34,978 nucleotides of DNA from Planctomycetaceae bacterium (GTDB lineage Bacteria > Planctomycetota > Planctomycetia > Planctomycetales > Planctomycetaceae), in NCBI GenBank assembly GCA_002726205.1, contig PBSL01000073.1:1-34978 (forward strand). The letters are read 5' to 3'. This document shows positions 1-14,938 of the stretch, piece by piece; position 1 is the first letter of the stretch; every line of letters starts with the position of its first letter. The translations under genes were made by a program, and so were the position numbers. The notes under the pieces are model-generated. The model was not told the DNA's origin, made no database searches, and saw only the letters and a program-made list of their open reading frames with translations.

Positions 1-2
1 AA

Positions 3-86
3 CGCCCCGAACTCGCCCGCTCGATCGCGACCGCCATGGGTGTCGAGCACCTGCTCCCCGCACACGGAAAGGAGGTGGCTGTATGA
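3..86 (+). CDS. C-terminal tail of an upstream gene, possibly a MoxR-type AAA ATPase (partial)
   Basis: An open frame enters from the left edge and ends with TGA at 84-86, giving 27 residues ending in ...GKEVAV. The stop overlaps the ATG of the next gene as ATGA, and the sequence AAAGGAGG just before it serves as a strong ribosome binding site for that gene. The fragment is too short for a family call. DUF2201-type metallopeptidase/VWA genes usually follow a MoxR-like AAA+ ATPase gene, so that is the likely identity, inferred from context only. The overlap makes translational coupling with the downstream gene likely. Confidence 0.6.
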   Translation, partial: RPELARSIATAMGVEHLLPAHGKEVAV

Positions 87-1324
87 CACGCCACGCTGTG
101 CAACACAAGCTGCAGGAGGCCCGCTGCCTGCTGTTGAACCATGAGCCCTGGTACGGCCACGCATCGATGCGAATGACGTGGCACGAGTTGGACCGGATCG
201 AGACGATGGGTGTCCGCGTTATCAACGGCGGCGATGTCGAATGCGCCTACAACCCGGGCTTCGTCGAATCCCTGACGCCGATGGAACTCGCGGGCGTGAT
301 CCAGCACGAGATCAACCATGTCGTCCGTTGTCACTGCATCCGCCGGGGCGATCGCAATCCGACGGCCTGGAATGTCGCCGCCGACATGACCGTCAATGGC
401 CACCGGCAGAACCCCCGGATTGGACTCTGGGATCCCGACACGCAGCAACGCGTGATCCCGCTCAACGGGAACATCATCTGGATCCCCGAGGGCTGGCCGC
501 CGGACGCCAGCACCGAGGAGTTCTACGAGCGAATCACAATCCACGGGAACCCCTGTGCCGGATCCGGGCAGACCGACGATCACTCGATGTGGGACGAGTC
601 CGACTGCAGTGCCGAGGAGCTCAAGACGGTGCTGCAGGGATTCTTCTCGGGGCTGAAGTCGCAGGGCCATCATGCCCCGTCCCACATGCGCGACGCGATC
701 GAATCAATCGCGTCGCCGCAGATCAACTGGCGATCACTCCTGCGCCAGAATCTCGGCCGAGCCCTCACGCCGCACCGCCGACGGCCGACCGTCTCGCGAC
801 CGCCCCGGCGACGAACCGGCTTCGGGCTGCGTGGTGTCAGGCGACGTCAACGCTGCCGCGTCGTCGCCATCATTGATGTCAGTGGCTCGATCTCGGAATC
901 CGACCTCCAGCTGTTCTTTGCTGAGCTCGAGGAGATCTGCCGGCTGCGGGGCACCCACATCAGCGTCCTGCTCTGGGACGATGAACTCCAGGGCTACATC
1001 GAGGACTACCAGCCGGGTGACTGGAACACCATCTCGCTGGCCGGCGGAGGTGGCACCGACATGATCGCTCCCTTCGATTGGCTCGAAGACAACGGCCGGA
1101 TCGGCGATTGCACCATCCTGTTGACCGATGGCTTTTGCGATTGGCCGAAACCACGCAGCACGCCACTGGTGACGGTCATTCGAGGCGAGTCGATTCCGCG
1201 CGGCACGCCGGGGTGGGGAGTCGTGATCCAGCTCGACGAAACCGCCTCCGCAGTTTCGTTCGCTCTCGCGTCGGGGTTGACTGGTGCTCGGTTCGTGAGA
1301 GATGTCGACGGATCGTTGATGTGA
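83..1324 (+). CDS. DUF2201-type putative metallopeptidase with C-terminal VWA-like domain
   Basis: The 413-residue protein has two recognisable parts. The N-terminal half carries a zinc-peptidase-like helix HEINH at residues 75-79, followed closely by H84. The C-terminal part from about residue 258 is a von Willebrand A-like domain with an intact metal-ion site, D265-x-S267-x-S269, a later GGGGTDM segment and a LTDG strand. This pairing is the DUF2201 arrangement (putative metallopeptidase plus VWA-like). Such proteins usually act with a MoxR-family AAA+ ATPase, and the upstream fragment overlapping its start by ATGA fits that place. The start is supported by AAAGGAGG about 7 bases upstream. 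Real substrates of the family are unknown. The basic Arg-rich linker at about 240-258 may bind nucleic acid or simply connect the domains. Confidence 0.88.
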   Translation: MTRHAVQHKLQEARCLLLNHEPWYGHASMRMTWHELDRIETMGVRVINGGDVECAYNPGFVESLTPMELAGVIQHEINHVVRCHCIRRGDRNPTAWNVAADMTVNGHRQNPRIGLWDPDTQQRVIPLNGNIIWIPEGWPPDASTEEFYERITIHGNPCAGSGQTDDHSMWDESDCSAEELKTVLQGFFSGLKSQGHHAPSHMRDAIESIASPQINWRSLLRQNLGRALTPHRRRPTVSRPPRRRTGFGLRGVRRRQRCRVVAIIDVSGSISESDLQLFFAELEEICRLRGTHISVLLWDDELQGYIEDYQPGDWNTISLAGGGGTDMIAPFDWLEDNGRIGDCTILLTDGFCDWPKPRSTPLVTVIRGESIPRGTPGWGVVIQLDETASAVSFALASGLTGARFVRDVDGSLM

Positions 1325-1398
1325 ACTGATAACCGCAGTCACCAATGCGCCTGCAAGCTCCCAAACCGCAAGCAACTTTCCTGGAGGTCAATCACACT

Positions 1399-1674
1399 AT
1401 GCAGTTTCTTCGAGCCTTGGCTTTATTCTACGGAGTGTCCCTGTTGCTCTCGGGTGTCGGCATGGCCGCCTATTGCCTCGCATCCGACAACCCCTTTCCC
1501 ACTCGACAGGGTCAAGACGCCGTCATGGACATCCGCATGTTCTACCTGACAGCCGGACCGGTCATGACCGTCGGCCTCGGGTCGATGCTGATCTGGTGGG
1601 GTATCGGCCGTCGCGCCCGCAAGAGAGCCCTGAGTGGCCTACGGCAACTCGGGCAACAGCTGTTGGAAGCATGA
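1399..1674 (+). CDS. Small membrane protein, two predicted helices, function unknown
   Basis: A 91-residue protein. The ATG at 1399 is preferred over the in-frame ATG at 1345 because GGAGG lies at 1383-1387, about 11 bases before it, and because the first residues then begin a hydrophobic segment. Two membrane spans are visible, roughly residues 3-28 and 50-70, joined by a short polar stretch, and the C-terminus is basic (GRRARKRA). No family is recognised. It sits 74 bases after the metallopeptidase/VWA gene and 49 bases before the DUF429-like gene on the same strand, so it may be part of that unit. It could be a membrane anchor for a neighbouring complex, but nothing in the sequence shows this. 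Confidence 0.65.
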   Translation: MQFLRALALFYGVSLLLSGVGMAAYCLASDNPFPTRQGQDAVMDIRMFYLTAGPVMTVGLGSMLIWWGIGRRARKRALSGLRQLGQQLLEA

Positions 1675-1723
1675 ACAGCACGATCCGGTCATACTCCCAA
1701 GCCACTTACCGAAAGGCCCACTC

Positions 1724-2575
1724 ATGCTGTTTCATGGAATCGACTTCGCGAACAGAGACAACAATATTGGCCGCTGCTGGCTGCAAGATGACGGCGTCTC
1801 GCTGCAGCTTCACCTGCAGCCGCCTGCCGAAGAGGCGGCGGACACCCGGACTGCCGTGGACTGTCCCTTCGGCACTTCACGGGGATTCGGGAGGATCCTC
1901 CAGGGCCTGCTGCCGCCTGACGAAGGCGACGACGGCTACAAGACTCGCGAGACCGAGCGATGGCTCCGCCACCATATCGGCCAATTTGACACACACCAGG
2001 AGTGGCGAAACCGCACGGATGCAGAGAGGGAATTGTTCCGTCGCCCGAACTACTACCATCCCACGGCCCACGTCCAATCGACGCTGGGACTGCAAATCGT
2101 ACCCGAATGTCTAGCCTGGCTCATGGAGACGCTCGCCCCCGACACCGAGCCGGACATTCGCCTGGAATTGCTTGCGTCGGCTCGAAAGGGCGAATCGCAA
2201 ATCGTCGAGGCTCATCCGCGTCCGTTCCTCTACTCAGCAATCGAGCGGCTGTTTCACCACAACAACCAACTGGTCACTCTCCAGGTGCTAGAGACGGTTG
2301 CGGACTACAAGGAGAGGCCCGGTGATCCCCATGTTGCGCAGCGAGGCCAGATCTACAGGTTGCTGCAACAACACACCCAGTGGATTCGACAGGCACGTGC
2401 CATCTTGCCTGCAGAACCGCCCGACGAACTGATTGCCTCGGACCACACATTCGATGCCTGGCTGTGTTGTCTCACCGCATGGGCACACCACCAGAACCAG
2501 ACAATCACATGGCAGGCAGCCGGACTTGATGAGGCGGCTGTTGCGTGCGAAGGACACATCCTGGTGCTGAGCTAG
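1724..2575 (+). CDS. DUF429-like protein (predicted RNase H-fold nuclease)
   Basis: A 283-residue protein. The start at 1724 has GAAAGG 7 bases upstream and puts the motif GIDFA (D7) at the very N-terminus, as in DUF429 proteins where this first beta-strand Asp is part of an RNase H-like active site. A CPFGTSRGF segment at about residues 47-55 also resembles that family. The C-terminal half is helical and conserved in style but not recognised. An upstream in-frame ATG at 1634 would overlap the previous gene and lacks a good ribosome binding site. Codon choice here (more A/T-ending codons and CAA/AAC runs) looks different from the housekeeping genes to the right, which suggests acquired DNA. 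The family call is moderate; nuclease activity is an inference. Confidence 0.6.
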   Translation: MLFHGIDFANRDNNIGRCWLQDDGVSLQLHLQPPAEEAADTRTAVDCPFGTSRGFGRILQGLLPPDEGDDGYKTRETERWLRHHIGQFDTHQEWRNRTDAERELFRRPNYYHPTAHVQSTLGLQIVPECLAWLMETLAPDTEPDIRLELLASARKGESQIVEAHPRPFLYSAIERLFHHNNQLVTLQVLETVADYKERPGDPHVAQRGQIYRLLQQHTQWIRQARAILPAEPPDELIASDHTFDAWLCCLTAWAHHQNQTITWQAAGLDEAAVACEGHILVLS

Positions 2576-2724
2576 AATCGGTCAGTCGATCCAGAAACTG
2601 AACAGCCGTGACCGGGTCAGCTCGAACTTCAACCGGAGCCACACCGCCTCCGGCAGCCGAGGACTCCGGATTAGCCCTGGCGCTCCCAACACCCTTTCTC
2701 ACACCACACCTCCCGGGGAACGAC

Positions 2725-3573
2725 ATGAAAGGCCTTTACTCTCGACGTGAAGCTCTCCTGGGCATGGCGGCCATCCCACTTTCTGCGACAGTCTGGCCGC
2801 GGTTCGCTACCCTTTCTGCAAACACCTTGCGCCCATCCCTACGCAAGTTGCTCGAACTTCAGGGCCCTGTCGTCGTGGTCCCGGAACTCTCGTCCCTGCT
2901 CAAGTTCCAACTGGGTCCAGACGCCTGGAGCGAAACTCCATCACCGGCAGCGACAAGGGGCTGGAACGCACTTTGGGTGCAACCAGAACAGGACACACTC
3001 TGTCTCCACTATGTCGGGAGTTTCTTCGAGAGCGTACTACAGGAACTGGGGGCTGGAGGCCAAGCCTCGGCGACACTCTCCGGCCTCTCAGCGCAACAGG
3101 TCATGAAACTCGCAGAAGTTTGTCTCGATCAAGCACGTCGTGCCGGGCTCTTCATTTCTCCTCCAGGCAATCCGGCGGTGATCGATGAGAAGCTATTACA
3201 GCTGCTGTCGCTGATACGAGAGTCCCCTCACGGGAACCCCGATCCTGACCTCTGCGGCCTGGACGTCATTTTCACCGAAGTGGGACATTTCGAAACCGTC
3301 ATCCGTCGTTCAGGAGGGCGGTACCACATTTGCACCAGTCCGGCTCTCCAACACCTCACTGATCACCGTGGCGATCTCATGGCCTCGAAGTGTGTCCATC
3401 CCTTACTCGTGCTTGAGCGCAGATTACGTCCGCTGCCTTGTCACTTCACACAGAGTGCCTTGATCCACCAGTTGCATCTCGTTTGCGAGGTCAAGAGTCA
3501 GGCACAGGCTCTATCAGTCTTGTCGAAAACGAGCCGTTGTACGTGGAGCGGTTGCCGGGCTGGCCGCGCATGA
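2725..3573 (+). CDS. Tat-signal protein of unknown function
   Basis: A 282-residue protein. The ATG at 2725 is chosen because it is followed by a twin-arginine-like leader, SRREALLGMAAIPLSATVW, starting at residue 6, with a hydrophobic core and an Ala-rich end. An in-frame GTG at 2608 would bury this leader. The mature part holds short alpha/beta segments (VVVVPELSSLL, CLHYVGSFFESVLQELG) but matches no family I can name. The last 20 or so residues are Cys/Arg-rich and look unlike the rest, so the true C-terminus may be altered by a frame change. It ends 4 bases before the tRNA terminator hairpin on the other strand. Likely exported folded, with a cofactor or partner unknown. Confidence 0.55.
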   Translation: MKGLYSRREALLGMAAIPLSATVWPRFATLSANTLRPSLRKLLELQGPVVVVPELSSLLKFQLGPDAWSETPSPAATRGWNALWVQPEQDTLCLHYVGSFFESVLQELGAGGQASATLSGLSAQQVMKLAEVCLDQARRAGLFISPPGNPAVIDEKLLQLLSLIRESPHGNPDPDLCGLDVIFTEVGHFETVIRRSGGRYHICTSPALQHLTDHRGDLMASKCVHPLLVLERRLRPLPCHFTQSALIHQLHLVCEVKSQAQALSVLSKTSRCTWSGCRAGRA

Positions 3574-3596
3574 GAAAACCCCTGTTTTGCAGGGGT
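3574..3596 (-). terminator. Intrinsic terminator of the tRNA-Leu transcript
   Basis: Read on the minus strand, a perfect 7-bp stem ACCCCTG/CAGGGGT (3590-3596 with 3578-3584) encloses a 5-base loop and is followed by TTTT. It lies about 36 bases past the tRNA 3' end. Read on the plus strand there is no T run, so it mainly serves the tRNA. Confidence 0.7.
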
Positions 3597-3600
3597 CTGC

Positions 3601-3629
3601 GACCGGGTGCGAAGCGGTGCACCCCGGTC
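3601..3629 (-). other. Hairpin in the tRNA-Leu 3' trailer
   Basis: The stem GACCGGGTGC (3601-3610) pairs with GCACCCCGGTC (3619-3629) with a single bulged base. It starts only 4 bases after the mature tRNA 3' end and precedes the terminator, so it probably forms in the precursor and may guide 3' processing or add to termination. Confidence 0.5.
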
Positions 3630-3632
3630 GAG

Positions 3633-3718
3633 TGCCCAAGAGAGGACTCGAACCTCCACGGGAAATAAATCCCACTAGGTCCTGAACCTAGCGCGTCTGC
3701 CAATTCCGCCACTTGGGC
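3633..3718 (-). tRNA. tRNA-Leu, anticodon CAG
   Basis: The reverse complement folds as a class II tRNA. The acceptor arm is GCCCAAG/CTTGGGC with discriminator A at 3633. The D arm is GCGG...CGC with the GG pair of the loop. The anticodon stem is CTAGG/CCTAG around the loop TTCAGGA, whose CAG anticodon is encoded at 3682-3684. There is a long variable arm (GGGA...TCCC), and the T arm has the loop TTCGAGT. The 3' CCA is not encoded, so CCA-adding enzyme is needed. It reads the CUG codon, heavily used in this GC-rich DNA. Confidence 0.96.
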
Positions 3719-3782: not shown

Positions 3783-6044
3783 CTATCGTTTCTGCAGCAG
3801 GACGTTGACGCCCTTCTTGTTCGACAGGGCGATGTCGGAGAGTCCGTCGCCGTTGACATCGGTGACCAGGAACTGGGTTCCCACGCCGGTCCCCAGCCCC
3901 TCGGTGATCTCGTGCGGCACGAACTGCGGAGCCTGTCCCTTCCGCTTGCGGACCTCGTACCAGTACATCTTCACCGGGTCACGTCCACCCGGGTCTCCGC
4001 CGTTGTGTGCGAAGAACCGCTTGCCAGTGACCAGGTCACGGGTGCCGTTGCCAGTGATGTCGACCCACTCCATGGCGTGCGTCTGCGAGTACGACTTGTC
4101 GATCAGGTGGTATTTGAATTTCGGCCGGCTGTTGCCGCCGGTGTTTTCGAACCACCACACACCGAATGTATGGGCCGAGCTCATGACCAGGTCGTTGTCG
4201 CCGTCGAGGTCGAAGTCGTCGACATAGATGTTGGCTGCCTTGACCGGGGGACTTGCCGCGTTCTTGGCCAGGTGCAGCGGGTGAAATTCCCAGGTGGCAG
4301 CGGTCGGCTTGGCCGGGGCCTCCCACCAGCCGTGCGGGATCACGACGTCGGATCGTCCGTCGCGGTTGACGTCGCCGACGCCCAGGCCGTGGTAGTACTT
4401 GAAGGTACCGTTCTTCATCGGGTCGCCCTTGCGGCTGATCGCGCGGAAGGGCCACTTGCCGGTCGGCAATGTTGATCCCGGCAGTTGCAGGTAACCCATC
4501 CGGCTTTCCGGCTGCGACCCGAAGATCAGCTCGGGCCGACCGTCTCCGTCGAGGTCCTCGAACTCGGGCGACTCGTTGCAGATGCTGCTCCAGACGATGT
4601 GTTGTTTCCAGTGTCCGCCCCCGCGTCCGGGGTTCTGGTACCAGTGGAAGGGGTCGCCGGGAAAGCCGATGTAAAAGACATCCTGCCAGCCGTCGCGGTT
4701 GATGTCCCAGCCGAACATCGCGAAGCAGTTGCTGTAGCCCTTGCCGGCGACAAACTCGCCGGGCTTGCGGATTTCATGGACGGTCCACTTCGGTCCGGCG
4801 TACCAGACATCGCCGGCGATGATGTCGTTGAAGCCGTCGTGGTTGACGTCGAAGACGGCCACGCCCTCGGAGCGAAAGCGGGCGTCGAGTTTCAGCCGTC
4901 GCCAGCCGACCTGCTTGCCGGAAATCGCCGCGGCGTCCTCGAGTACCCGCACGCGGTGATTGGAACTGTCGCCGATGTAGACCCGGCTCTTGGCATCAAC
5001 GAAGACGCCGTGCGGACGGGCAAGCCGACAACTGCGGGGATCACCGTCGGGACCGTCGGCCTGTTGTCCGTCGCCGACAAGCGTGTGGATCGTGCCGGTC
5101 TTGTGGCGGATGACCCGGATCGTGTGGCTCTCGGTATCCGCCAGGTAGATGTCGCCACCCGGACCCGCCGCAATTCCCTTGGGACCACTGAGCAGGGCCT
5201 GGCGGGCATCGCCACCGTCTCCGGCGTAGCCCTTCTTGCCGGTGCCGGCCACGTGGTGCAGTGTCTGCTTGTCCAGGTCGATGCGGTACACGGCATTGCC
5301 TTCGCGCAGAGCGAGGACGAGGTTGCCGTGGCCGTCGTAATCCAGCGCCCGGGGTCCGTTCAGCGGCGTGCCCGCCAGCGGGGCACCGTCGGGGGTCGGT
5401 TTTCGAGCCCCGGTTCCTGCGAACGTCGAGATCTTTCCGGTCTTGAGTTCGACACGGCGAACGCGGTGGTTGCCGATGTCGCAGATGTAGAGGTTGCCGC
5501 GGTCGTCGAGTGCGATTGAATGGGGGGCTTTCAGGCGAGCCCTGGTGGCCGGACCCCCGTCACCACCGAAGCCGGGTTGGCCGGTTCCGGCGACGGTCGA
5601 GATTTTTCCGGTCTTCGCATCGACGCGACGAACAAGGTGGTTGACCATCTCGACGAAGAACATGTTTCCCGCCGCGTCGAATCGCACCTCGTAGGGTTCA
5701 TTACAGGCCGCGTCGGTTGCGGAACCGCCGTCACCGGCGTAGCCCTTTCTGCCGCCGGCGACGGTCGAGATCAGGCCGGTGCGGCGATCGATCCGTCGCA
5801 CACAGTGGTTGCTGATCTCGCAGACATACAACGCTCCGTCGGGACCCAGCGTGACACCGAAGGGACCACCGACGGTCGCCCGCGATGCCGGGCCGCCGTT
5901 GCCGGTGTAGGCCGGCTTGCCGTTGCCGGCCACCGATACGACCCGGCCGGCCGCCGATGCGGTCACCGGCAGGCAGCCCATCAACACTAGCAGGGCCGAG
6001 AAGACGGGGGCTGGACGGACCGCTCGCGAAAGACCACCGATCAT
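3783..6044 (-). CDS. Exported NHL-repeat plus VCBS/FG-GAP double beta-propeller protein
   Basis: A 753-residue protein with a signal peptide (hydrophobic residues about 14-28, ending ASA-A) for transport out of the cytoplasm. Residues about 33-375 contain six NHL-type units (each with a VAGxG...GDGG turn and a hydrophobic N/S-H-x-V/I-R-R-I/V strand), enough for one six-bladed propeller. Residues about 390-753 contain seven VCBS/FG-GAP units with calcium-binding loops such as DVNHDG, DINRDG, DLDGDG, DVNRDG, DFDLDG, DITGNG and DVNGDG, enough for a seven-bladed propeller. The start at 6044 is chosen over 6092 because GGAG lies 8 bases upstream and the signal peptide then begins directly. No catalytic domain is visible, so the likely role is extracellular or periplasmic binding. 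Confidence 0.88.
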   Translation of the reverse strand: MIGGLSRAVRPAPVFSALLVLMGCLPVTASAAGRVVSVAGNGKPAYTGNGGPASRATVGGPFGVTLGPDGALYVCEISNHCVRRIDRRTGLISTVAGGRKGYAGDGGSATDAACNEPYEVRFDAAGNMFFVEMVNHLVRRVDAKTGKISTVAGTGQPGFGGDGGPATRARLKAPHSIALDDRGNLYICDIGNHRVRRVELKTGKISTFAGTGARKPTPDGAPLAGTPLNGPRALDYDGHGNLVLALREGNAVYRIDLDKQTLHHVAGTGKKGYAGDGGDARQALLSGPKGIAAGPGGDIYLADTESHTIRVIRHKTGTIHTLVGDGQQADGPDGDPRSCRLARPHGVFVDAKSRVYIGDSSNHRVRVLEDAAAISGKQVGWRRLKLDARFRSEGVAVFDVNHDGFNDIIAGDVWYAGPKWTVHEIRKPGEFVAGKGYSNCFAMFGWDINRDGWQDVFYIGFPGDPFHWYQNPGRGGGHWKQHIVWSSICNESPEFEDLDGDGRPELIFGSQPESRMGYLQLPGSTLPTGKWPFRAISRKGDPMKNGTFKYYHGLGVGDVNRDGRSDVVIPHGWWEAPAKPTAATWEFHPLHLAKNAASPPVKAANIYVDDFDLDGDNDLVMSSAHTFGVWWFENTGGNSRPKFKYHLIDKSYSQTHAMEWVDITGNGTRDLVTGKRFFAHNGGDPGGRDPVKMYWYEVRKRKGQAPQFVPHEITEGLGTGVGTQFLVTDVNGDGLSDIALSNKKGVNVLLQKR

Positions 6045-6134
6045 GATCGAGACTCCGGGCTGGGACACCAGGTTTTCGTCAGGGCGATCCATGGTATCGC
6101 CGTCGCGATCGGTTCGCCACGCGGTGCCCGGCGG

Positions 6135-6743
6135 CTAGGAGTTTTCGACCCGGACCCGGGCATAGGCCGGTGTGTCCCGCGGCAGAAGAGCCAGGGAACT
6201 GAACACGATCGGGGTGAAGACGGCCGTTGCCAGCAACGAGTTGCGGAAGAACGGCAGCGCCATCTCGAAGCAGATCGCCAATCCGCCGAGGTCATGCGAG
6301 TACATGCCGCTGCTTGACCACACGCCGACATTGGTGACCAGGAAGAACAGCGTTTCGGCGGCCACGGCCGTTCCGCCGATCGTCCACGCGGTACGCTCGC
6401 CTCGCAGCAGCATCCCCAGCGAGGTGCTCAGGACAAACGCGGCGTAAACCACCAGCGTGTTGGAATGAAACGCGTTGTCGATGCTGCCACCGAGCAGGCC
6501 GATTCCGGTATCGGTCACCAGCATCACCAGCAGGGGGCAGAGACAGGCCACCGCGCGGTGTCGGAAGTGGGCACCGGCGAACAGGCACAACGCCGTCAGT
6601 GGGACGAAGTTCCACGGGTAGACCATCCGCTCGATCGGGATCTCGACTCCCGTGGCCCGCAGCAGCCAGGGCAGCAGCCTGACGAGGACGGCGTAGGCGA
6701 CAAAAGCCACCACGAACCAGGTACGGGGACGACGCATCGGCAA
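6135..6743 (-). CDS. DUF6580-like multi-pass membrane protein
   Basis: A 202-residue protein with about five to six hydrophobic spans (for example residues 8-30, 41-60, 64-85, 95-112, 120-142 and 170-190). The length, span pattern and the YPWNFVPLTALCLFAGA segment near residues 42-58 fit the DUF6580 family, which resembles the substrate-binding S component of ECF-type importers. GAGG lies 9 bases before the ATG at 6743; a second ATG two codons on is also possible. It is on the same strand as the NHL/VCBS gene 90 bases downstream and could share its transcript. No partner ATPase genes are nearby, so its substrate cannot be inferred. Confidence 0.7.
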   Translation of the reverse strand: MPMRRPRTWFVVAFVAYAVLVRLLPWLLRATGVEIPIERMVYPWNFVPLTALCLFAGAHFRHRAVACLCPLLVMLVTDTGIGLLGGSIDNAFHSNTLVVYAAFVLSTSLGMLLRGERTAWTIGGTAVAAETLFFLVTNVGVWSSSGMYSHDLGGLAICFEMALPFFRNSLLATAVFTPIVFSSLALLPRDTPAYARVRVENS

Positions 6744-6884
6744 GATCCTCGGATGTTCCGCTCAGCTTCAACAGGCTGGCCTGACGGATCCCTAATTACC
6801 ACATCAATTCCGCCAATGGAATCCATAGCTGGTTCGGATCCGGGCAACCCTCTAGACTGCCGCGGTTAATCAGGGGGATCGACG

Positions 6885-7613
6885 ATGAGCGAAACGCTGG
6901 AAGACCGGGTGGCGATCGTGATCGGGGCCACCAGTGGCATGGGCCGCGCGACGGCTTTTGCACTGGCGCGTGGTGGAGCAAAAGTGACCGCCGCGGGGCG
7001 CCGCGAATCCCGCCTGGAATCACTGGTGGTGGAGTCGGCGGCCGAGGGACTTGTGATCGACACCTGTGGTTGTGATGTGATGGTCGAGGAAGAGGTCGAG
7101 GGTCTGGTCGGGCAGGTCGTTGGGGCCTACGGGCGAGTCGATCTGCTGGTGTACGCGACGGGGACGAATATTCCCGGGCGGAGCCTGGAGGTGATCACCC
7201 CCGAGACCTGGGACATGATGCTCGCCACCAACCTCAGCGGGGCCTTCCACGCAACCCGCGCGGTCCTGCCCACGATGCGTTCGGCCGGCGGTGGACTGAT
7301 CGTGTACCTCTCGACCGCCGCGGTGCAAATGCCCGATGTCTCGGGCGTTGCCTACCAGGCCAGCAAGCACGGCTTGTCGGGCCTGGCCCATGGCACGCGG
7401 GCCGAGGAACAGGCCAACGGGATCCGAACCTGCGTGATTTTTCCCGGGTTGTGCGACACCGAGATCCTCGAAAAGCGTCCCGTCCCGACGCCTCGCGAGA
7501 TCCTCGACCAATCACTCGACCCCGGGGACGTCGCCGACGCGGTGCTTTTCGTTGCCGGGCTGAACCCGCGGGCCGTCGTGCCGGAAATGCAGCTGTTGCC
7601 GAGTCGACTCTGA
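6885..7613 (+). CDS. SDR family NAD(P)-dependent oxidoreductase
   Basis: A 242-residue classical short-chain dehydrogenase/reductase. The nucleotide-binding turn GATSGMG (G14, G18, G20) follows a first beta strand, and the catalytic residues are N116, S143 and Y157-x3-K161. The usual NNAG structural motif reads VYATG at 89-93, a mild departure. The residues R39 and R40 after the second strand favour NADP(H), by family analogy. The ATG has GGGGG about 9 bases upstream. The gene is alone on the plus strand, divergent from the DUF6580 gene and convergent with the DUF1990 gene. The substrate, an alcohol or ketone, cannot be told. Confidence 0.9.
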   Translation: MSETLEDRVAIVIGATSGMGRATAFALARGGAKVTAAGRRESRLESLVVESAAEGLVIDTCGCDVMVEEEVEGLVGQVVGAYGRVDLLVYATGTNIPGRSLEVITPETWDMMLATNLSGAFHATRAVLPTMRSAGGGLIVYLSTAAVQMPDVSGVAYQASKHGLSGLAHGTRAEEQANGIRTCVIFPGLCDTEILEKRPVPTPREILDQSLDPGDVADAVLFVAGLNPRAVVPEMQLLPSRL

Positions 7614-7646
7614 GTCGACCGGGTCGGTGTCGGTCAGTCGCTCCAG

Positions 7647-7677
7647 GCGAACAGGCCGGGCCGCGTTAGCCTGTCGC
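7647..7677. terminator. Possible bidirectional terminator between convergent genes
   Basis: An imperfect hairpin GCGA-A-CAGGC / GCCTGTCGC with one bulge and a 12-base loop lies midway in the 76-base gap between the stops of the SDR and DUF1990 genes. There is no T run on either side, so termination is only suggested by position. Confidence 0.3.
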
Positions 7678-7689
7678 TGTCGCCGTTGT

Positions 7690-8298
7690 TTACTGGCTTG
7701 CCCGCTCGACCGCTCTCTGCATGGCCGACTGGGATTGCCGGGCAAACCGTTTTTGCATTGCCCGGGCGATCGGGTAGCCCAGTCTTGTCAGCGGGTGACT
7801 GGGACGTGAAATGGCCGAGAGGTCGTACCAGCAGACCCCCGCGTCATCCTGTTCGACCAGGAACCGTTCTTCTCCACGCTCGGCATGATCGGGCAGAGTC
7901 CCGTAGGCGAACCCGAAACGGCGTCGTGGTTGCGATTCGTCGATCACGTAGACCACGCGGCAGGCGTTGAGCCACCAGGCCAGCGGGAGATTGATCAGCA
8001 GTCCGATTGTCATGCCCTCGGCCGGATCCGAGGGGGACATGGTTGATGTTCCCGACGAGGGGTCGAGGATCGTGACCCAGTCGATGTCGAACATTGCCCA
8101 GCGTCTCAGGGCATCGCGGGCCGCATCGAAAACCGCATCGCCCTCTCCCAGCCGGGTCCGGTAGTGGTCGAATACGAATCCATCCGGAACCTGCTGCGAT
8201 CGAGTCGCACCGACGGCCTCGTAGGTGAACTCCAGGGGCGCCTGCTTTTCGAGGAACCGGATGATCGATGTGTCAGCGGGTCGTCGACAGGTGAGCAT
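7690..8298 (-). CDS. DUF1990 (UPF0548) family protein
   Basis: A 202-residue protein. Its body matches the DUF1990 pattern of an alpha/beta START-like barrel: the segment FVFDHYRTRLGEGDAVFDAARDALRRW at about residues 42-68 and the C-terminal GEERFLVEQD...VCWYDLSAISRPSHPLTRLGYPIARAMQKRF block are typical. The open frame extends further upstream, but that part overlaps the sua5 gene in another frame. The ATG at 8298 begins 23 bases after the sua5 stop and is therefore preferred, although no clear ribosome binding site is seen. It is the last gene of the lpxL-Rieske-sua5 set. The family's biochemical role is not established. Confidence 0.82.
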   Translation of the reverse strand: MLTCRRPADTSIIRFLEKQAPLEFTYEAVGATRSQQVPDGFVFDHYRTRLGEGDAVFDAARDALRRWAMFDIDWVTILDPSSGTSTMSPSDPAEGMTIGLLINLPLAWWLNACRVVYVIDESQPRRRFGFAYGTLPDHAERGEERFLVEQDDAGVCWYDLSAISRPSHPLTRLGYPIARAMQKRFARQSQSAMQRAVERASQ

Positions 8299-8321
8299 GG
8301 GCTGTTGTACCGGTGAAGTGG

Positions 8322-9284
8322 TCAGCTGCCGGCGGCTCGATCGAGTCGGTTGTTCAACGCCAGCCCCAGTCCGGAATCGGGAAACGGCAAGGCAATGATC
8401 CGGTCGAGTCCGGCATCGTCCAGGCGGTGCAGTGCAGCGAAGAACCCGGCGGCAGCCTCGACCAGGTCGCCGGTTTCCGAGAGCACCTCGACGTGGGACC
8501 AGTCGTGGTTGGACGCGGGCCGATGCAGTGTCAGCAGGCCAAGGCGACCGGCGGGAAGGGAATCGATTGTGTCGGTGACCGTTACCGGGGTGGCTGGCGA
8601 GTAGTGTCGGGCGAGCATTCCCGGAGCCGGTGCGGCCTCGCCGGTGGGTAAGTGTTCGGTGGCGACGGTGATCGGTCCGATGGCCGCTTCGAGTTCCTCC
8701 CGGGTGAGGCCTCCCGGCCGCAGCATCACCGGAAGCGGGCCACTGACATCGAGAACCGTCGATTCGACACCGATCCGGCACGGACCACCGTCCAGGATTC
8801 GTTCGATCCGATCACCGAGCTGCGAGACGACGTGCGCGGCGGTGGTGGGGCTGATTCCACCGAAACGGTTGGCGCTGGGGGCGGCGATCGGACAGCCGGC
8901 CAGGGTGATCAGGCGGCGGGCCGAAGCGTGTGCGGGGACACGGACCGCGACGGTGGGCAGATCCGAGGAGACGATCGCGGGAATCGTGTCCGCTCGTGGC
9001 ACGACCAGCGTCAGCGGTCCCGGCCAGAAGGTCTCGGCCAGGCTGGCCGCCGTCGGGGAGACAGCGGTGGTGACCGTTGCCAGCTGTTCGGGATCGGACA
9101 GGTGCACGATCACCGGGTCAAAGCGAGGGCGTTGCTTGGCCGCGAAGATCTTCGCGACGGCCCGGGCATTGGTGGCATCACCACCGAGCCCGTAGACGGT
9201 CTCGGTGGGAAATGCGACCAGTCCGCCGGATCGCAGGATCTCTGCAGCTTCGGTCAACTGATCGTCGGTGAGGGAAGTGGTCAC
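8322..9284 (-). CDS. tsaC/sua5: L-threonylcarbamoyladenylate synthase (Sua5 type)
   Basis: A 320-residue cytoplasmic enzyme that makes threonylcarbamoyl-AMP from threonine, bicarbonate and ATP for the t6A37 modification of ANN-reading tRNAs. The YrdC domain covers about residues 5-190, with the signature FPTETVYGLG near residue 25, KxRP (KQRP) about 25 residues later and the SAN motif (APSANRFGG). A linker with GMLARHYSP at about residue 205 leads into the C-terminal Sua5 domain, so this is the long form, not the short TsaC form. The GTG start at 9284 overlaps the Rieske stop as GTGA. The longer frame to 9398 lies inside the Rieske gene and is unlikely. Confidence 0.92.
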   Translation of the reverse strand: MTTSLTDDQLTEAAEILRSGGLVAFPTETVYGLGGDATNARAVAKIFAAKQRPRFDPVIVHLSDPEQLATVTTAVSPTAASLAETFWPGPLTLVVPRADTIPAIVSSDLPTVAVRVPAHASARRLITLAGCPIAAPSANRFGGISPTTAAHVVSQLGDRIERILDGGPCRIGVESTVLDVSGPLPVMLRPGGLTREELEAAIGPITVATEHLPTGEAAPAPGMLARHYSPATPVTVTDTIDSLPAGRLGLLTLHRPASNHDWSHVEVLSETGDLVEAAAGFFAALHRLDDAGLDRIIALPFPDSGLGLALNNRLDRAAGS

Positions 9285-9631
9285 GGCAGATCGACCAGCA
9301 CGTCGTCCCCGTCGATGGTGACCGGAAACGATGGCTGCCGGATCGCCTCGGTCAGGCAGTGTTGCCCGGTGCTGGCATCGAATTGCCAGCCGTGCCACGG
9401 GCAGGTGACGATGCAGCCGTCGAGTTGTCCCTTGCCCAGCGGTCCTCCGGCATGCGGACAGACGCCGTCGAGAGCGTAAAGTGTTCCCTCGACGTTGTAG
9501 AGCGCGATCACGCGACCGCCGGCGATCAACTCGTGGGAGGACCCGGGAGGTATGTCGGACAGGGCAGCGATTCGAACTTGTTCGGACATGTCTTTCATGT
9601 TCGAGAGGTCCGGCCGCGGCGTCAACGCCAT
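9281..9631 (-). CDS. Small Rieske [2Fe-2S] ferredoxin-like protein
   Basis: A 116-residue protein with one Rieske cluster site: C58-x-H60 and C77-x2-H80, in CPHAGG and CPWHGW. No other domain is present, so it is of the NirD/ferredoxin-component type that passes electrons to an oxygenase or reductase not encoded here. Starts are ambiguous. The ATG at 9631 overlaps the acyltransferase stop as TGATG and is favoured for coupling, while ATGs at 9598 and 9589 give 105 and 102 residues, closer to the family norm. Its stop overlaps the sua5 start as GTGA. The link to lipid A acylation or tRNA modification is only positional. Confidence 0.87.
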   Translation of the reverse strand: MALTPRPDLSNMKDMSEQVRIAALSDIPPGSSHELIAGGRVIALYNVEGTLYALDGVCPHAGGPLGKGQLDGCIVTCPWHGWQFDASTGQHCLTEAIRQPSFPVTIDGDDVLVDLP

Positions 9632-10584
9632 CAGGCGGCCCAAGACGTCGCCGAAACTGTCGGACCGCGGCGACTGCGACGGCGGCCGGGTTGGCTCTTC
9701 CATCGTCGATGAATCCAGAAGTACTGTTCGGGAGCTCGATGGATCACCCGTTCCAGTGCTGCGGTGTATTGCCGTGTCAGTGCCAGGACGGGATTCTTGT
9801 CGTCGATCGCGCCGGCATCGATCAGTTCCTCGCAGCCGACCTCGAAGCGTTCCGGACCGTTGTTGCGATCAAGCCGGATGGCGTAGCCGACGCAGATGAT
9901 TGCCTCGTGCCGCAGGGCCAGCAGGGCGATCGACTTGAACGTCGAGGCCGGGTGCCCGAAGAAATCGACGAACAGACCGTGAGATCCCGCGTCCTGGTCG
10001 CAGAGCAGTGCCAGGCGGCCGGCCGATTCCAATCGCTCGATCATCTCGCCGCTGGCACCGGACTTGTCGAGCAGGTCGTGGCCGGTGTTGCTGCGGAAGC
10101 GGATGAAGTAACGATCGAGATAGGGATTGTCCAATCGTCGGGCGACGACACCCATCGAGAACCCGAAAAGACCGAAGATCCAGACGGCCAGTTCCCAGTT
10201 GCCAAGGTGGCCGCTGAGCATGATCACGGGGCGGTCCGAGCACAGCGCGGCGACGACCGGGTCCCGATTACGGAAACGGATGTAACGCAGGTAGCTGGTT
10301 CGGGAAAGTCGACGTTGCAGGTGAATGATCTCACCGATCGTCCGGAACAGGTGCTGCCACATCTGGCCGATGATCCGGTCAGTGTCGATCGAATCACCGA
10401 AGGCGCGGTGAAGGTTCTCGACGGCGATCTCGCGGCGGGTCAGTCGCCCGGGCAGCAGGCGATGGATGACGAAGGCCAACACGGTCGAGCCGGCATCGAT
10501 CAGGCGAAGCGGCATCGCGTGAATCACGGCCACCAGCCCGCGAAAGGCGGCGTATTCCAGCAGGTGACGGAAATGGCGTGTCAT
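9631..10584 (-). CDS. LpxL/LpxM-like lysophospholipid acyltransferase
   Basis: A 317-residue membrane-associated acyltransferase of the HtrB/LpxL family, which transfers a secondary acyl chain to lipid A precursors at the inner face of the cytoplasmic membrane. The catalytic HxxxxE box HLGNWE is near residues 124-129 within LSGHLGNWE. A later D-x-D...G...F-F-G-x-P-A segment (DQDAGSHGLFVDFFGHPAST) and a C-terminal E-Q-Y-F-W-I-H-R-R-W match the family. AAGGA lies 7 bases before the ATG. Its presence fits an LPS-bearing outer membrane. The precise acyl chain and acceptor cannot be told from sequence. It heads the lpxL-Rieske-sua5-DUF1990 unit and has its own promoter candidate. Confidence 0.9.
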   Translation of the reverse strand: MTRHFRHLLEYAAFRGLVAVIHAMPLRLIDAGSTVLAFVIHRLLPGRLTRREIAVENLHRAFGDSIDTDRIIGQMWQHLFRTIGEIIHLQRRLSRTSYLRYIRFRNRDPVVAALCSDRPVIMLSGHLGNWELAVWIFGLFGFSMGVVARRLDNPYLDRYFIRFRSNTGHDLLDKSGASGEMIERLESAGRLALLCDQDAGSHGLFVDFFGHPASTFKSIALLALRHEAIICVGYAIRLDRNNGPERFEVGCEELIDAGAIDDKNPVLALTRQYTAALERVIHRAPEQYFWIHRRWKSQPGRRRSRRGPTVSATSWAA

Positions 10585-10632
10585 CCCGGCGTCCTTGCCG
10601 TGGATCGTGTGGGGGACTGGCGACGTGCTGAG

Positions 10633-10661
10633 AGTGTGCCGCTGTTGGCAGCGAGGGTCAA
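10633..10661 (-). promoter_or_regulatory. Candidate promoter for the acyltransferase operon
   Basis: On the minus strand TTGACC (10656-10661) precedes CACACT (10633-10638) with a 17-base spacer, 49 bases upstream of the acyltransferase ATG. The -35 box is 5 of 6, the -10 box only 3 of 6. It lies in the gap after the oxidoreductase stop. Confidence 0.45.
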
Positions 10662-10695
10662 GATGGATGCGGAAGTCGCCGGTTCGTGTCGCGTC

Positions 10696-11787
10696 CTACT
10701 TCTTCCTGCGAACCGCCGCGGGGATCCGTGGATCACGTTTCAACGGCAGCGAGACCTTCCGTCCGGTCCACGCTGACTGGTAGATCGCCAGGATGATCTC
10801 GACGCTCTTGCGACCCTCCTTGTCGTCAACCATCGGTTTGCCACCACCCCGGATCGACTTGATGAAGTCCTTGAGTTGTTCGGTGTGACCATCGTAGGAA
10901 ATGGCCGTCGGGTCGCTGGCCCCGCTGCCACCGACATCGTCCCCGCCGAAGCGGCGGCGAGTGGCCGCGTCGCTGCTTCGGCCGCTGGCGAAGTCCCAGG
11001 TCACCAGCCGGTCTTCCTCGACGACCGCGGTGCCGCAGGTCCCGTGGATCTCGACCTTCTTGGAGAACCCGGGATAGGCCGCGGTGGTGGCTTCGATCGT
11101 GCCCAGTGCACCGTTGCGAAACCGTAGCGCCGCCACGCCGACGTCCTCGACCTCGATCCGCTTGTGGGCCAGCGTGTCGGTCATCGCCGTGACCTCGGCG
11201 ACGTCGCCCATCAGGTAGTACATCAAGTCGACACTGTGGATCGCCTGGTTCATGTAGGCTCCACCCCCGTCGAGATTCCAGGTTCCCCGCCAGCCACCGC
11301 TGTCGTAATATTCCTGCGTTCGCCACCACTTGACGTAGCTGTCGCCCAGCGTCAGGCGGCCGAAACGGCCCTGGTCGATTGCTGCCTTCAGCGACTGGTT
11401 GATGCCGTGGTAGCGCGACGGAAAGATCGTGGTCAACCCGACCTTGTTGCGGCGGCACGCCGAGATGATCGCATCGCAGCGGGCGAGGGTGATCTCGAGC
11501 GGTTTTTCCACGACGACGTGCTTGCCCGCGTTGGCGGCCGCGACGGCCGGGTCGCGGTGCGCCCCGCTGGGGGTGCAGATCGTCACCACGTCGACCGATT
11601 GATCGTCGAGCATCTCGTCGAGTCGCTCGTAGGCGGTTACCCCGGGATTGGCCGCGGCAAATCGCTGGGCCGCCGCCGGGAACGTGTCATAACACGCGGT
11701 GATCTTCGCTCCACGGATGTCGCCGACGGCCAACGCGTGGAAGTTGGCGATCATGCCACAGCCGACCATCCCGAATCCTGTTGCCAT
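10696..11787 (-). CDS. Gfo/Idh/MocA family oxidoreductase
   Basis: A 363-residue NAD(P)-dependent sugar or inositol dehydrogenase-like enzyme. The N-terminal Rossmann domain starts with MVGCGMIANFHA (GxGxxA) at residues 7-18, and the family lysine motif EKP is in VVVEKPLEIT near residue 95. The C-terminal alpha/beta domain holds the substrate-site segment GGGAYMNQAIHSVDLMYYLMG. No signal peptide is visible, so it works in the cytoplasm. GAGAGA precedes the ATG by about 9 bases. It follows the tyrosyl-tRNA synthetase gene by 50 bases on the same strand. The substrate is not inferable; the family oxidises a sugar hydroxyl at C3 or similar position. Confidence 0.92.
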   Translation of the reverse strand: MATGFGMVGCGMIANFHALAVGDIRGAKITACYDTFPAAAQRFAAANPGVTAYERLDEMLDDQSVDVVTICTPSGAHRDPAVAAANAGKHVVVEKPLEITLARCDAIISACRRNKVGLTTIFPSRYHGINQSLKAAIDQGRFGRLTLGDSYVKWWRTQEYYDSGGWRGTWNLDGGGAYMNQAIHSVDLMYYLMGDVAEVTAMTDTLAHKRIEVEDVGVAALRFRNGALGTIEATTAAYPGFSKKVEIHGTCGTAVVEEDRLVTWDFASGRSSDAATRRRFGGDDVGGSGASDPTAISYDGHTEQLKDFIKSIRGGGKPMVDDKEGRKSVEIILAIYQSAWTGRKVSLPLKRDPRIPAAVRRKK

Positions 11788-11837
11788 GATGAAATCTCTC
11801 TGGTGATTGTCGCGGGAAGAGTCGGCGGCTTGATGTG

Positions 11838-13061
11838 CTAGTTGTTCTCGAGCGCAACACGGCAGAGCCGTTTCTTACCGACCCACAGCATCAATCCGTC
11901 GGTCACGGTGACCGGCGTGTCGTGACTGTCGAATCGCTGCTTGTCCTCGCCGAAGTAGGCACCGCCCTGGGCGATGGCCCGGCGGGCTTCGCTGGTCGAT
12001 CCGCACAGCCCGGCCAGTTGCAGCAAGCGGGCCGCCGGGAGGCAGCCGTCTTGCAGGTCTGCTGTCGAGAGGGTCACCTCGGGAATATCCTCGGGGCGGC
12101 GGCCCTCGCCGATTTCCCGCTGCCAGCGATCGGCGGCCTCGAGAGCCTCCTGGGCCGAGTGGTACTCGGTGATCACCGCTCGGGCCAATGCCAGCTTGCA
12201 TTCCTTGGGATGCCCGGCCAGCAACGAATCGACTTCCTCGAGCGGAACGTCCGTCAGCAGTTCGAAGTACATCCGCATGCAATCGTCGGGCACCTGCATG
12301 AACTTCTTCATCTTCTCGTAGGGCGGTTCGGCAATGCCGATGTAGTTGTCCAGGCTCTTGCCCATCCGTCGCTGGCCGTCCAGGCCGACCAGAATCGGCG
12401 ACATCACGCCGACCTGTCCGGGTTGCCCCTGGTTCTTCTGGAGATCGCGGGCGAGCATGAAACTGTAGAGTTGCTCGGTGCCGCCCAGTTCGACGTCGGC
12501 GCGGACCTCGACAGAATCCCAGGCCTGCATGACCGGGTAGAGGCACTCGTGCAGGTAGATTGGCGATTCGGCCTTGTATCGTTTCGAAAAATCATCGCGG
12601 GTCAGCAACTGCGCCACGGTCACCTTGCTGGTCAACTCGAGAGTGTCCTGGAAGCTCATCGCCGAAAACCAGTCACCGTTGCGAACCACCTCGGTCCGCT
12701 CCAGGTCGAGGACCCGATCGAGTTGTCCGAGATAATCGACCGCGTTGGCTTCGACCTGTTCGATGGTCAACCGGGCACGCGTCTCGTCGCGGCCACTGGG
12801 ATCCCCGACCAGGGCGGTGTAGTTGCCGATGATGATCACCGCCTGGTGCCCCAGTTCCTGGAACTGCCGCATCTTTCGCATCGGGACGGTGTGTCCCAGG
12901 TGCAGGTCGATCCCGGTCGGATCGATCCCGTACTTGACCCTCAACGGCGTGTCGGTCTCGCGGCTCCGCTCCAGCTTCTCGACCAGTTCCGATTCCGGCA
13001 CGATCTCCTCGATCCCGCGACGGATCACGGCCAACTGGTCGGTGACGGGAGCAAACGGCAT
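11838..13061 (-). CDS. tyrS: Tyrosyl-tRNA synthetase (class Ic, with S4 domain)
   Basis: A 407-residue enzyme that charges tRNA-Tyr. The Rossmann core has the HIGH-like motif HLGHT near residues 53-57 and the KMSKS-like loop reads RRMGKS near residue 235, keeping the second lysine and serine but with arginine in place of the first lysine. The tyrosine-site segments GGTEQLYSF and YPVMQAWD are present. The C-terminal about 60 residues form an S4 RNA-binding domain (GLCGSTSEARRAIAQGGAYFG). The length fits the TyrZ-like type rather than the E. coli TyrS type. The ATG at 13061 (GGAAC upstream) is preferred; the longer frame to 13124 adds a Pro/Ser/Arg-rich stretch not expected in the family. Confidence 0.94.
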   Translation of the reverse strand: MPFAPVTDQLAVIRRGIEEIVPESELVEKLERSRETDTPLRVKYGIDPTGIDLHLGHTVPMRKMRQFQELGHQAVIIIGNYTALVGDPSGRDETRARLTIEQVEANAVDYLGQLDRVLDLERTEVVRNGDWFSAMSFQDTLELTSKVTVAQLLTRDDFSKRYKAESPIYLHECLYPVMQAWDSVEVRADVELGGTEQLYSFMLARDLQKNQGQPGQVGVMSPILVGLDGQRRMGKSLDNYIGIAEPPYEKMKKFMQVPDDCMRMYFELLTDVPLEEVDSLLAGHPKECKLALARAVITEYHSAQEALEAADRWQREIGEGRRPEDIPEVTLSTADLQDGCLPAARLLQLAGLCGSTSEARRAIAQGGAYFGEDKQRFDSHDTPVTVTDGLMLWVGKKRLCRVALENN

Positions 13062-13173
13062 CGGCGATGTTCCAATCGGCACGGGGGCGGTGGACCGCCT
13101 TGTTCGGGACCGGGCCGCGACCACAAACCTACCAACCCCCTCCGGGAGTGGCCAGCGTTGTCCGTGGATGCCG

Positions 13174-14034
13174 TCAGTTGGGGATGCCCTGCCAGAGAAC
13201 CAGCGTGATGTTGGTGGCGTTGAACAGGAGGTGCGTCATCACGACGGCCGGGTAACTGCCCGAACGGTGGTAGGTGATGCCCAGGATCAACGCCAGCGGC
13301 AGCAGCGCGATGCGGTCTGGCCAGTTTGGATGCACCATGGCGAAGGCCAGGGCGGTCAGGAAGATCGCGGCCGCCGGAGGACACCACCGCAACAGCGATC
13401 GCTGCACGATCACACGGAATGCCAGTTCCTCGACCAGCGGTGCCAACACCACCGCGCTGACGATGATCGTGATCCGCGTGATCGGGTCGGGGTCGAACTC
13501 GATCAATTTCAGCAGGGGATGCAGGTCGTCGACGGTTCGCAGCGGGGTGGTCAGCCACAGGGCAATGATGGTCGGCAGCACACAGGCCAGGAAGCCGACA
13601 GTTCCCCAGGCGATCTGCCGCGACCAGGGGCCAGGCCGGAGACCGACGGGTGAGGACTCGGACCCGGCCACTTCGGTCCCGGCCAGTTGGACCAGGGCCG
13701 TGAGGACTCCGAACAGGACCGCCAGGGCCACACAATTCTGGATGAGTGTCTCGCGGGCCGAGGCGGCGTCGAACGACGGGTTGGAAAGGGAGGGGTCCGG
13801 CAACGGCCGCACCAGCAGCAGTGGCAGAACGAGCCAGCAAAGAATCGTCACCGGCAACAGCCAGGCCGGCCAGGGGCGCGGTTGCTGGTCGGGTGGCCCC
13901 GGGAACGGCTGGCCTGGCCGCGCGTTTCGCAGCAGCAACCCCCAGGTCACCGTGCTGGCCAGTACCAGCAACGCCAGGACAATCAGAGCGGGGGGCGTGA
14001 CCATGGGAGGATGATTTCCGGAAGGCACTGTCAT
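13174..14034 (-). CDS. CPBP family intramembrane glutamic protease (Abi/CAAX-like)
   Basis: A 286-residue multi-span membrane protein. The conserved motifs of CPBP (Abi) proteases are seen near the C-terminus: EE-x3-R in VEELAFRVIVQ, then F-x3-H in FAFAMVHPNW-like context (FAMVH), and H-x3-N in HLLFNATN. These residues coordinate water or metal for cleavage inside the membrane. About seven or eight hydrophobic segments are present. The ATG at 14034 has no ribosome binding site; an ATG at 14004 (276 residues) is an equally good start. It is the first gene of the minus-strand set with tyrS, 112 bases apart. In bacteria such proteins have been linked to bacteriocin immunity or protein processing, but the role here is open. 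Confidence 0.86.
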   Translation of the reverse strand: MTVPSGNHPPMVTPPALIVLALLVLASTVTWGLLLRNARPGQPFPGPPDQQPRPWPAWLLPVTILCWLVLPLLLVRPLPDPSLSNPSFDAASARETLIQNCVALAVLFGVLTALVQLAGTEVAGSESSPVGLRPGPWSRQIAWGTVGFLACVLPTIIALWLTTPLRTVDDLHPLLKLIEFDPDPITRITIIVSAVVLAPLVEELAFRVIVQRSLLRWCPPAAAIFLTALAFAMVHPNWPDRIALLPLALILGITYHRSGSYPAVVMTHLLFNATNITLVLWQGIPN

Positions 14035-14097
14035 TGTAGTCGTAGAACGGCCAATCGCGACCCGCTACTGACTACTGGCAGGCGGTGATCGACTGTT

Positions 14098-14901: not shown

Positions 14902-14938
14902 CCGGCAACGAAGACCGTTGAAGACCCAGGGAGAGAAA

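Follow-up and report, generated by a model that had tools for sequence, protein, structure and literature searches.

Fusions of a metallopeptidase domain to a von Willebrand factor A (vWA) domain are known from phages, where they occur with MoxR-type AAA+ ATPases. The jumbo-phage survey of Iyer et al. 2021 (PMC7824862) proposes that the fusion acts with MoxR in virion assembly and proteolytic processing, and N4 genes 24 and 25 are given as core genes of N4-like phages in PMC4193335. The general mode of action of MoxR-vWA pairs used below is taken from PMC7159879 (section 8). Here we describe a related gene at the left end of a contig from a Planctomycetaceae bacterium (assembly GCA_002726205.1, contig PBSL01000073.1; contig C74 of genome G000 in our numbering). 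The window is this entire contig of 34,978 bases, and the left edge of the block of interest, bases 1 to 3631, is therefore the contig end itself. The block holds the last codons of a cut gene and four further genes (genes 1 to 4), and it ends at a tRNA-Leu(CAG) gene. We consider it likely that the block is accessory DNA on the 3′ side of a tRNA that serves as a site of tyrosine recombinase insertion in this planctomycete family, and that it is a mosaic rather than one system.

The tRNA-Leu(CAG) gene called by ARAGORN lies on the minus strand with its 3′ end pointing left, 58 bases from gene 4, and genes 1 to 4 lie on its 3′ side, as the earlier note on this DNA had described. The tRNA is flanked on its other side by a gene for an NHL/FG-GAP protein, a homologue of which was found in all 40 genomes searched, our own included. 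We examined 14 of the 39 relatives for a tRNA beside this homologue. Six of them (G017, G001, G012, G417, G413, and G003) have tRNA-Leu(CAG) there, and the other eight have none within the stretch read. The G413 contig stops just behind the tRNA, which leaves five informative sites; the downstream stretches compared were up to 12 kb each (5.3 kb in G417).

In G012, an integrase gene (Phage_integrase, Pfam E = 2.4e-19) adjoins the tRNA, and a 44-nucleotide direct repeat of the tRNA 3′ end (97.7% identity) lies about 51 kb away, outside any tRNA called by ARAGORN. G003 likewise has an integrase gene at the tRNA (E = 2.5e-11) and an exact 20-nucleotide repeat of the tRNA 3′ end 7.5 kb away. Downstream content differs among the five informative relatives, and because integrase-bearing elements bounded by tRNA 3′-end repeats occupy this place in two of them, the 3′ side of tRNA-Leu(CAG) is an integration hotspot in the relatives. 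The G012 comparison carries most weight, synteny in the family being generally short: G012 keeps eight genes from the right side of the window (6135 to 15562) with order and strands unchanged, extending to about 22 kb from its own tRNA, and the shared gene order stops at the tRNA. Across the five relatives, similar pairs between genomes numbered 0 among 49 downstream proteins and 3 among 47 proteins of the other side, a small contrast. The earlier note had held that finding all four genes here in every relative would speak against an island; genes 1 to 4 are at the tRNA-Leu(CAG) site in none of the five informative relatives.

The element in G012, about 51 kb long (read in loci L106, L105, and L097), carries an integrase, coupling-protein-like genes, and genes that by eye seem to be SulP-, DabA/DabB-, and carbonic anhydrase-like, a possible cargo for inorganic carbon uptake. 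Downstream of the tRNA-Leu in G001, we detected a caspase-protein kinase fusion (Pfam; L096, 3137 to 5335); conflict genes may be present at this site. The 3′ side of tRNA-Leu(CAG), beside the NHL/FG-GAP gene, is thus a place to seek mobile and defense genes in this family.

Gene 1 matches the Pfam families DUF2201_N (E = 3.5e-23) and DUF2201, a VWA-like domain (E = 4.3e-15), as well as PHROG 1314 (E = 1.8e-51). The motifs HEINH (residues 75 to 79) and DVSGS (residues 265 to 269), the latter a DxSxS metal ion-dependent adhesion site (MIDAS), are both intact, and residues H75, E76, H79, D265, S267, and S269 fall within invariant columns of an 11-protein alignment. The metallopeptidase/VWA identity read earlier from the letters is borne out by Pfam and the alignment, which place an HExxH zincin domain in fusion with a vWA domain that keeps its MIDAS residues. 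Gene 1 encodes a zincin-vWA protein of the kind that is paired with MoxR ATPases. “HNH endonuclease,” the label of PHROG 1314, was rejected as the function of gene 1; only the DUF2201 domains exceed the Pfam cut-off. PHROG 1314 and RefSeq phage records such as NC_023581, NC_071039, and NC_023719 carry this label for the metallopeptidase-vWA family and are apparently misannotated.

Genes of this family are rare in the phylum and recur beside MoxR. They were found in 12 of 392 phylum genomes including our own (11 of the 391 others) and in 4 of 170 genomes of the family including our own (3 of the 169 others). Matches were also detected in 73 of 50,697 phage records, each below 60% identity, and in 46 of 72,556 plasmid records. 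All 16 planctomycete loci inspected have a VWA protein (one weakly) and 13 have MoxR, by profiles built here with the help of five MoxRs and six VWA proteins from these loci. MoxR is present in all six viral contigs first found, two of which contributed to the MoxR profile, and in five of six annotated phages. Among 78 further viral loci, 65 have MoxR, in 56 of them on the same strand and no more than 3 kb upstream. In Acinetobacter phage Presley, the homologue of gene 1 is noted as an N4-like gp25 and is the second gene after an ATPase.

The earlier note had also reported a gene overlapping the metallopeptidase/VWA gene upstream; it is indeed there, in another frame and with a 4-base ATGA overlap at 83 to 86. 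Its C-terminal peptide (RPELARSIATAMG) is similar to RPALARRVASAMS, the C-terminal end of the MoxR in locus L243, from a Planctomycetaceae metagenome-assembled genome (MAG), with a score of 40 that was reached in 0 of 2000 shuffles. Against five other MoxRs beside gene 1 relatives, the scores were reached in 29, 59, 273, 810, and 1102 of 2000 shuffles, and none of seven comparisons with longer C-terminal stretches was significant. Two points weigh against a MoxR identity: it depends on a peptide of 27 residues and on a single pairwise match, and in a profile search, the peptide was not separated from its shuffles and ranked under many of them. The AAA+ partner proposed earlier for this position is therefore upheld by one matching C-terminus and left without help from the profile test and from the other MoxRs, which match weakly or not significantly. 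Since the frequent MoxR neighbor of the gene 1 family counts as much as the peptide match, we judge that the gene cut by the contig end very probably encodes a MoxR. MoxR genes of our own genome on contigs C63 and C16, found with the G008 MoxR as the query, are ordinary ones and were rejected as a continuation of the cut gene; the same query gave a third, weak match on C59.

Relatives of gene 1 were sought in IMG/VR by a scan with the 11-protein alignment and then with three close proteins. Among the matches listed, there were contigs of 178, 256, 341, 356, and 408 kb, and the best full-length viral match was 43% identical to gene 1. GTDB contigs yielded four loci: L243 (41%) and L245 (35%), both from Planctomycetaceae MAGs, together with a Tepidibacillus MAG (28%) and a Thermoplasmata MAG (partial), the last two of which were left out of the tree. 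Gene 1, the two Planctomycetaceae MAG proteins, and the proteins of the five IMG/VR contigs (178 to 408 kb) form one clade with support of 100/100, distinct from the proteins of the planctomycetes G008, G295, G326, and G330. A first tree had placed gene 1 with the G008/G295 group (88/94); this placement was dropped, as the later viral hits move gene 1 to the clade of large phages and MAGs. Branching inside this clade lacks firm resolution, and any transfer may have run either way. Near its members, MoxR occurs in three of five viral loci and in both MAG loci, where the L243 MoxR follows the VWA gene.

In two phage members of the clade, L166 and L252, the catalytic glutamate of HExxH is replaced (HMINH and HCINH). 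A 408-kb viral contig carries, at L249 12996 to 14411, a gene that looks by eye like adenylosuccinate synthetase and is possibly PurZ-like.

These relationships raise the question of whether the left end of the window is itself the margin of a large-phage segment, integrated or in decay, in which MoxR and gene 1 would come from a huge phage and genes 2 to 4 would be phage or satellite cargo. The large IMG/VR contigs supply five of the seven other proteins in the gene 1 clade, and of two such contigs checked, one has weak collagen-like tail-fiber matches nearby and the other a homing-endonuclease/Mom-like gene. However, genes 2 to 4 have no relative in 90 viral loci, scans of the viral contigs with genes 3 and 4 were empty, and the GC content at third codon positions (GC3) of gene 1 is host-like at 0.80, whereas three phage stretches have a GC content of 0.40 to 0.45. 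The two planctomycete MAGs also have gene 1, and Pfam found no phage structural family among ten neighbor proteins in their loci, where NADAR and NYN domains were detected. On balance, we think a phage segment improbable here. A more specific proposal is that a machine of MoxR and peptidase-vWA protein has been exchanged between huge phages and Planctomycetaceae and that the captured copy, codon adapted at the hotspot, serves the host, for example, by blocking virion assembly of related huge phages, with the DUF429 protein of gene 3 as a second effector. We rate this as highly improbable; if the exchange did take place, these huge phages would likely be parasites of planctomycetes. The well-supported clade links planctomycete genomes to very large phage contigs, and a host prediction for these phages is therefore testable.

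The best start of gene 2 is at 1399, with GGAGG upstream, and would give a protein of 91 amino acids. The earlier note saw in it a two-helix membrane protein, which is plausible, although only the first of its hydrophobic stretches exceeds the Kyte-Doolittle threshold of 1.6. No relatives of gene 2 were found in the fetched loci, the set with which it was compared, and neither gene 2 nor gene 4 has a Pfam family over the cut-off. Gene 3 was called DUF429-like at the outset, and Pfam agrees: PF04250 is matched at E = 1.3e-7 (32 bits, with a cut-off of 23). Its motifs GID, VDCPFG, VEAHP, and FDAW, read by eye, are presumably those of the family. We take gene 3 to encode a very diverged member, judging by its 32 bits, with a predicted RNase H-like fold. 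In the 392 phylum genomes, it matched itself and one weak copy with stops. It matched nothing in 29 further near relatives, nor in plasmids, phages, GTDB contigs, or IMG/VR viral contigs, where the contig-collection scans detect close relatives only. The DUF429 family at large occurs in 9 of 30 relatives including our own genome.

Gene 4 starts with SRREALLGM, which by eye resembles a signal of the twin-arginine translocation (Tat) type. Like gene 3, it matched itself and one weak copy with stops in the 392-genome phylum sample, and it had no match in the same scan of IMG/VR viral contigs. Its coding score is low (3.8th percentile), and one antisense frame scores slightly higher; an open frame as long as gene 4 arose in 2 of 500 shuffles. 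We conclude that gene 4 is probably, though not certainly, a real gene. Of the Tat protein announced earlier, the open frame and its Tat-like start hold and the coding score argues the other way. Single-sequence AlphaFold2 models had a mean predicted local distance difference test (pLDDT) score of 37 for gene 3 and 35 for gene 4, too low for a fold to be read from them.

Do these genes act together? All four share a strand and are separated by 74, 49, and 149 bases, MoxR-vWA pairs occur in predicted conflict systems according to PMC7159879, and the best PADLOC model for gene 3, PDC-S44, gave a weak match (E = 3e-4, 55 of 257 positions). One could thus imagine a single system, for example, an antiphage one, in which a MoxR-vWA-peptidase gates a DUF429 nuclease with membrane or exported partners. 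Of the vWA-MoxR ternary conflict systems, Pfam named no third core component such as VMAP, FtsH-type, or iSTAND proteins in genes 1 to 4; one may lie in the absent left part. The comparisons speak otherwise. MoxR and VWA genes are missing from all eight other DUF429 loci, each read for about 1.5 kb on both sides or as far as its contig went, genes 2 to 4 have no relative near the gene 1 homologues tested, the 90 viral loci among them, and the two MAG loci have the arrangement of gene 1 and MoxR without genes 2 to 4. Genes 1 and 4 differ in composition, and PADLOC gave no match for genes 1, 2, and 4. The joint function suggested in the earlier note thus finds no backing, and the lack of co-occurrence elsewhere, which that note had itself listed as evidence to the contrary, is what we observed. 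One system of four genes seems to us extremely improbable.

We instead favor a mosaic of accessory DNA, in which one visible part would consist of gene 1 and the tail of the MoxR AAA+ gene that overlaps it. By analogy with established MoxR-vWA behavior, the gene 1 protein would capture a substrate peptide through its vWA MIDAS site, the MoxR ring would drive remodeling, and cleavage of the substrate may be the task of the zincin domain in the fusion. The other part would be unrelated passengers: the hydrophobic protein, the DUF429 RNase H-like protein, and the orphan gene (ORFan) with a Tat-like start.

Composition was compared with 208 open reading frames (ORFs) from 20 stretches of our own genome. 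Gene 2 has a GC3 of 0.725 (36th percentile), gene 3 of 0.696 (22nd), and gene 4 of 0.603 (1.9th), the low percentiles being possibly exaggerated because the gene caller prefers high-GC3 ORFs; the codon index of gene 4 is under those of all 101 length-matched ORFs. In tetranucleotide distance, bases 1 to 3631 rank at the 85th percentile (n = 92 windows) and genes 2 to 4 at the 97th (n = 146). Gene 4 is the only clear composition outlier of the four. The less GC-biased codon choice attributed to the whole set accordingly applies to gene 4, weakly to genes 2 and 3, and not to gene 1, which lies at the 91st percentile; normal composition, proposed earlier as a sign against an island, is seen in gene 1 and not in gene 4.

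Several observations weigh against an island origin. The host-typical codon use of gene 1 is one. Bases 1 to 3631 contain no integrase gene, and the 22-nucleotide tRNA 3′ end, searched with up to 3 mismatches, has no copy in our own assembly outside tRNA-Leu(CAG) and tRNA-Leu(GAG). Apart from the latter, the repeat that the earlier note proposed to look for was thus not found; a far-end repeat may sit in the absent left part. Two of the relatives, G001 and G017, have no tRNA-end repeat of at least 14 nucleotides in the 76 kb read in each. The long right-side flank is common only to G012; right-side matches were absent within 20 kb in G017 and G001 and limited to one gene each in G417, G003, and G413, and such poor family synteny could mimic a variable region. 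We also note that G417 gave one 14-nucleotide match (93%, E = 0.72; 27 kb read, 5.3 kb of it downstream), that the only integrase-like gene in G001 is about 48 kb off, beside tRNA-Phe, and that G017 and G417 have no integrase-like gene in the stretches read. A protein from beyond the G012 element had no match in our own genome, and therefore no ancestral left neighbor could be placed.

A stretch on another contig of our own genome, C38 (locus L007, 323 to 415), was considered as the far end of an island and rejected. The match, at 80%, covers the tRNA trailer and a tRNA-like 3′ end, but the acceptor stem differs by eye, no tRNA is called there by ARAGORN, and positions 8452 to 8509 contain another copy of the trailer. 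Each of the two trailer/terminator copies of tRNA-Leu follows a tRNA-like 3′ end (CGGGGGCACT), and no tRNA gene was called at either. They are perhaps old trailer, tRNA, or attachment remnants and not a fresh attachment repeat.

An alternative hypothesis is that the block is ordinary lineage-specific chromosome, with vertically kept genes of a poorly sampled genus beside a coincidental tRNA. No other member of the genus appears among the 30 and the 40 relatives, both listed in full; gene 1 has typical codon use, and genes 2 and 3 are within range; our own genome shows no visible repeat or integrase; and family synteny is generally poor. Yet no clear relative of gene 3 or gene 4 turned up in the 391 other genomes of the phylum sample, phages commonly carry the gene 1 family, which is also known from elements, and the same site has taken in elements in G012 and G003. 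We regard this explanation as rather unlikely. The island origin put forward earlier thus gains from the integrase elements held by this site in two relatives and from the break in G012 gene order at the tRNA, while in our own genome no integrase was found in bases 1 to 3631 and no further tRNA 3′-end copy apart from tRNA-Leu(GAG). The features of the block and its border are listed in Table 1.

Table 1. Features at the left end of the window, with the basis of each call
Feature	Position	Strand	Basis and remarks
Upstream gene, C-terminal 27 codons and stop	3..86	+	Frame reading; probably MoxR-type AAA+ ATPase
Gene 1, predicted zincin-type metallopeptidase domain and vWA domain, N4 gp25/jumbo-phage type	83..1324	+	Pfam, PHROG, alignment
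Gene 2, hydrophobic protein, 91 amino acids	1399..1674	+	Pfam matches below cut-off only; no relatives in compared loci
Gene 3, predicted DUF429 protein (RNase H-like superfamily)	1724..2575	+	Pfam PF04250 over cut-off
Gene 4, ORFan, Tat-like N-terminus, composition outlier	2725..3573	+	Open frame, composition, searches
Terminator-like hairpin in tRNA trailer	3578..3596	-	Fold of minus strand; similar hairpin behind G003 tRNA-Leu
tRNA-Leu(CAG)	3632..3718	-	ARAGORN; 3′ side is integration site in relatives
NHL/FG-GAP protein, tRNA neighbor	3783..6092	-	Pfam; flank common to G012 begins here

Some planctomycete relatives of gene 1 sit in larger modules. In two planctomycetes (L090 and L088/L159), a RuvB-like AAA+ gene directly precedes MoxR and VWA genes on contigs with phage-like replication genes and integrases. 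The order in G008 is integrase, DUF1580, RuvB-like AAA+, MoxR, VWA, DnaB-like, and family A DNA polymerase, with other genes interspersed. The G295 contig has RuvB-like, MoxR, and VWA genes with a DnaB-like gene, a PD-(D/E)XK nuclease, and an integrase about 18 kb off. The G008 and G295 modules suggest that the gene 1 protein family travels on planctomycete elements, but they belong to a different clade from gene 1, and the stretches read around the G330 and G436 copies contain no integrase-like gene.

Among described systems, tRNA-associated genomic islands and integrative and conjugative elements resemble the locus in its position on a tRNA 3′ side, in variable content, and in the integrase elements at the same tRNA in two relatives; they differ in that no integrase or direct repeat was seen in the block, whose left end is absent. 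DUF429 proteins, which PMC3985635 assigns to the RNase H-like superfamily, are matched by gene 3 over the Pfam cut-off and in the expected motifs by eye, and gene 3 stands apart through its strong divergence. The RuvB-like-MoxR-VWA modules of L090 and L088 have MoxR directly before a DUF2201 protein, but they form a separate clade from gene 1 and carry the RuvB-like AAA+ gene and phage-like replication genes. Last, the MoxR and metallopeptidase-vWA pair of jumbo and N4-like phages, as presented in PMC7824862 and PMC4193335, differs in setting, gene 1 being on a planctomycete contig, beside a tRNA, with host-like codons and no virion genes in view; what gene 1 has in common with that pair is the same zincin-vWA fusion and, probably, the MoxR neighbor.

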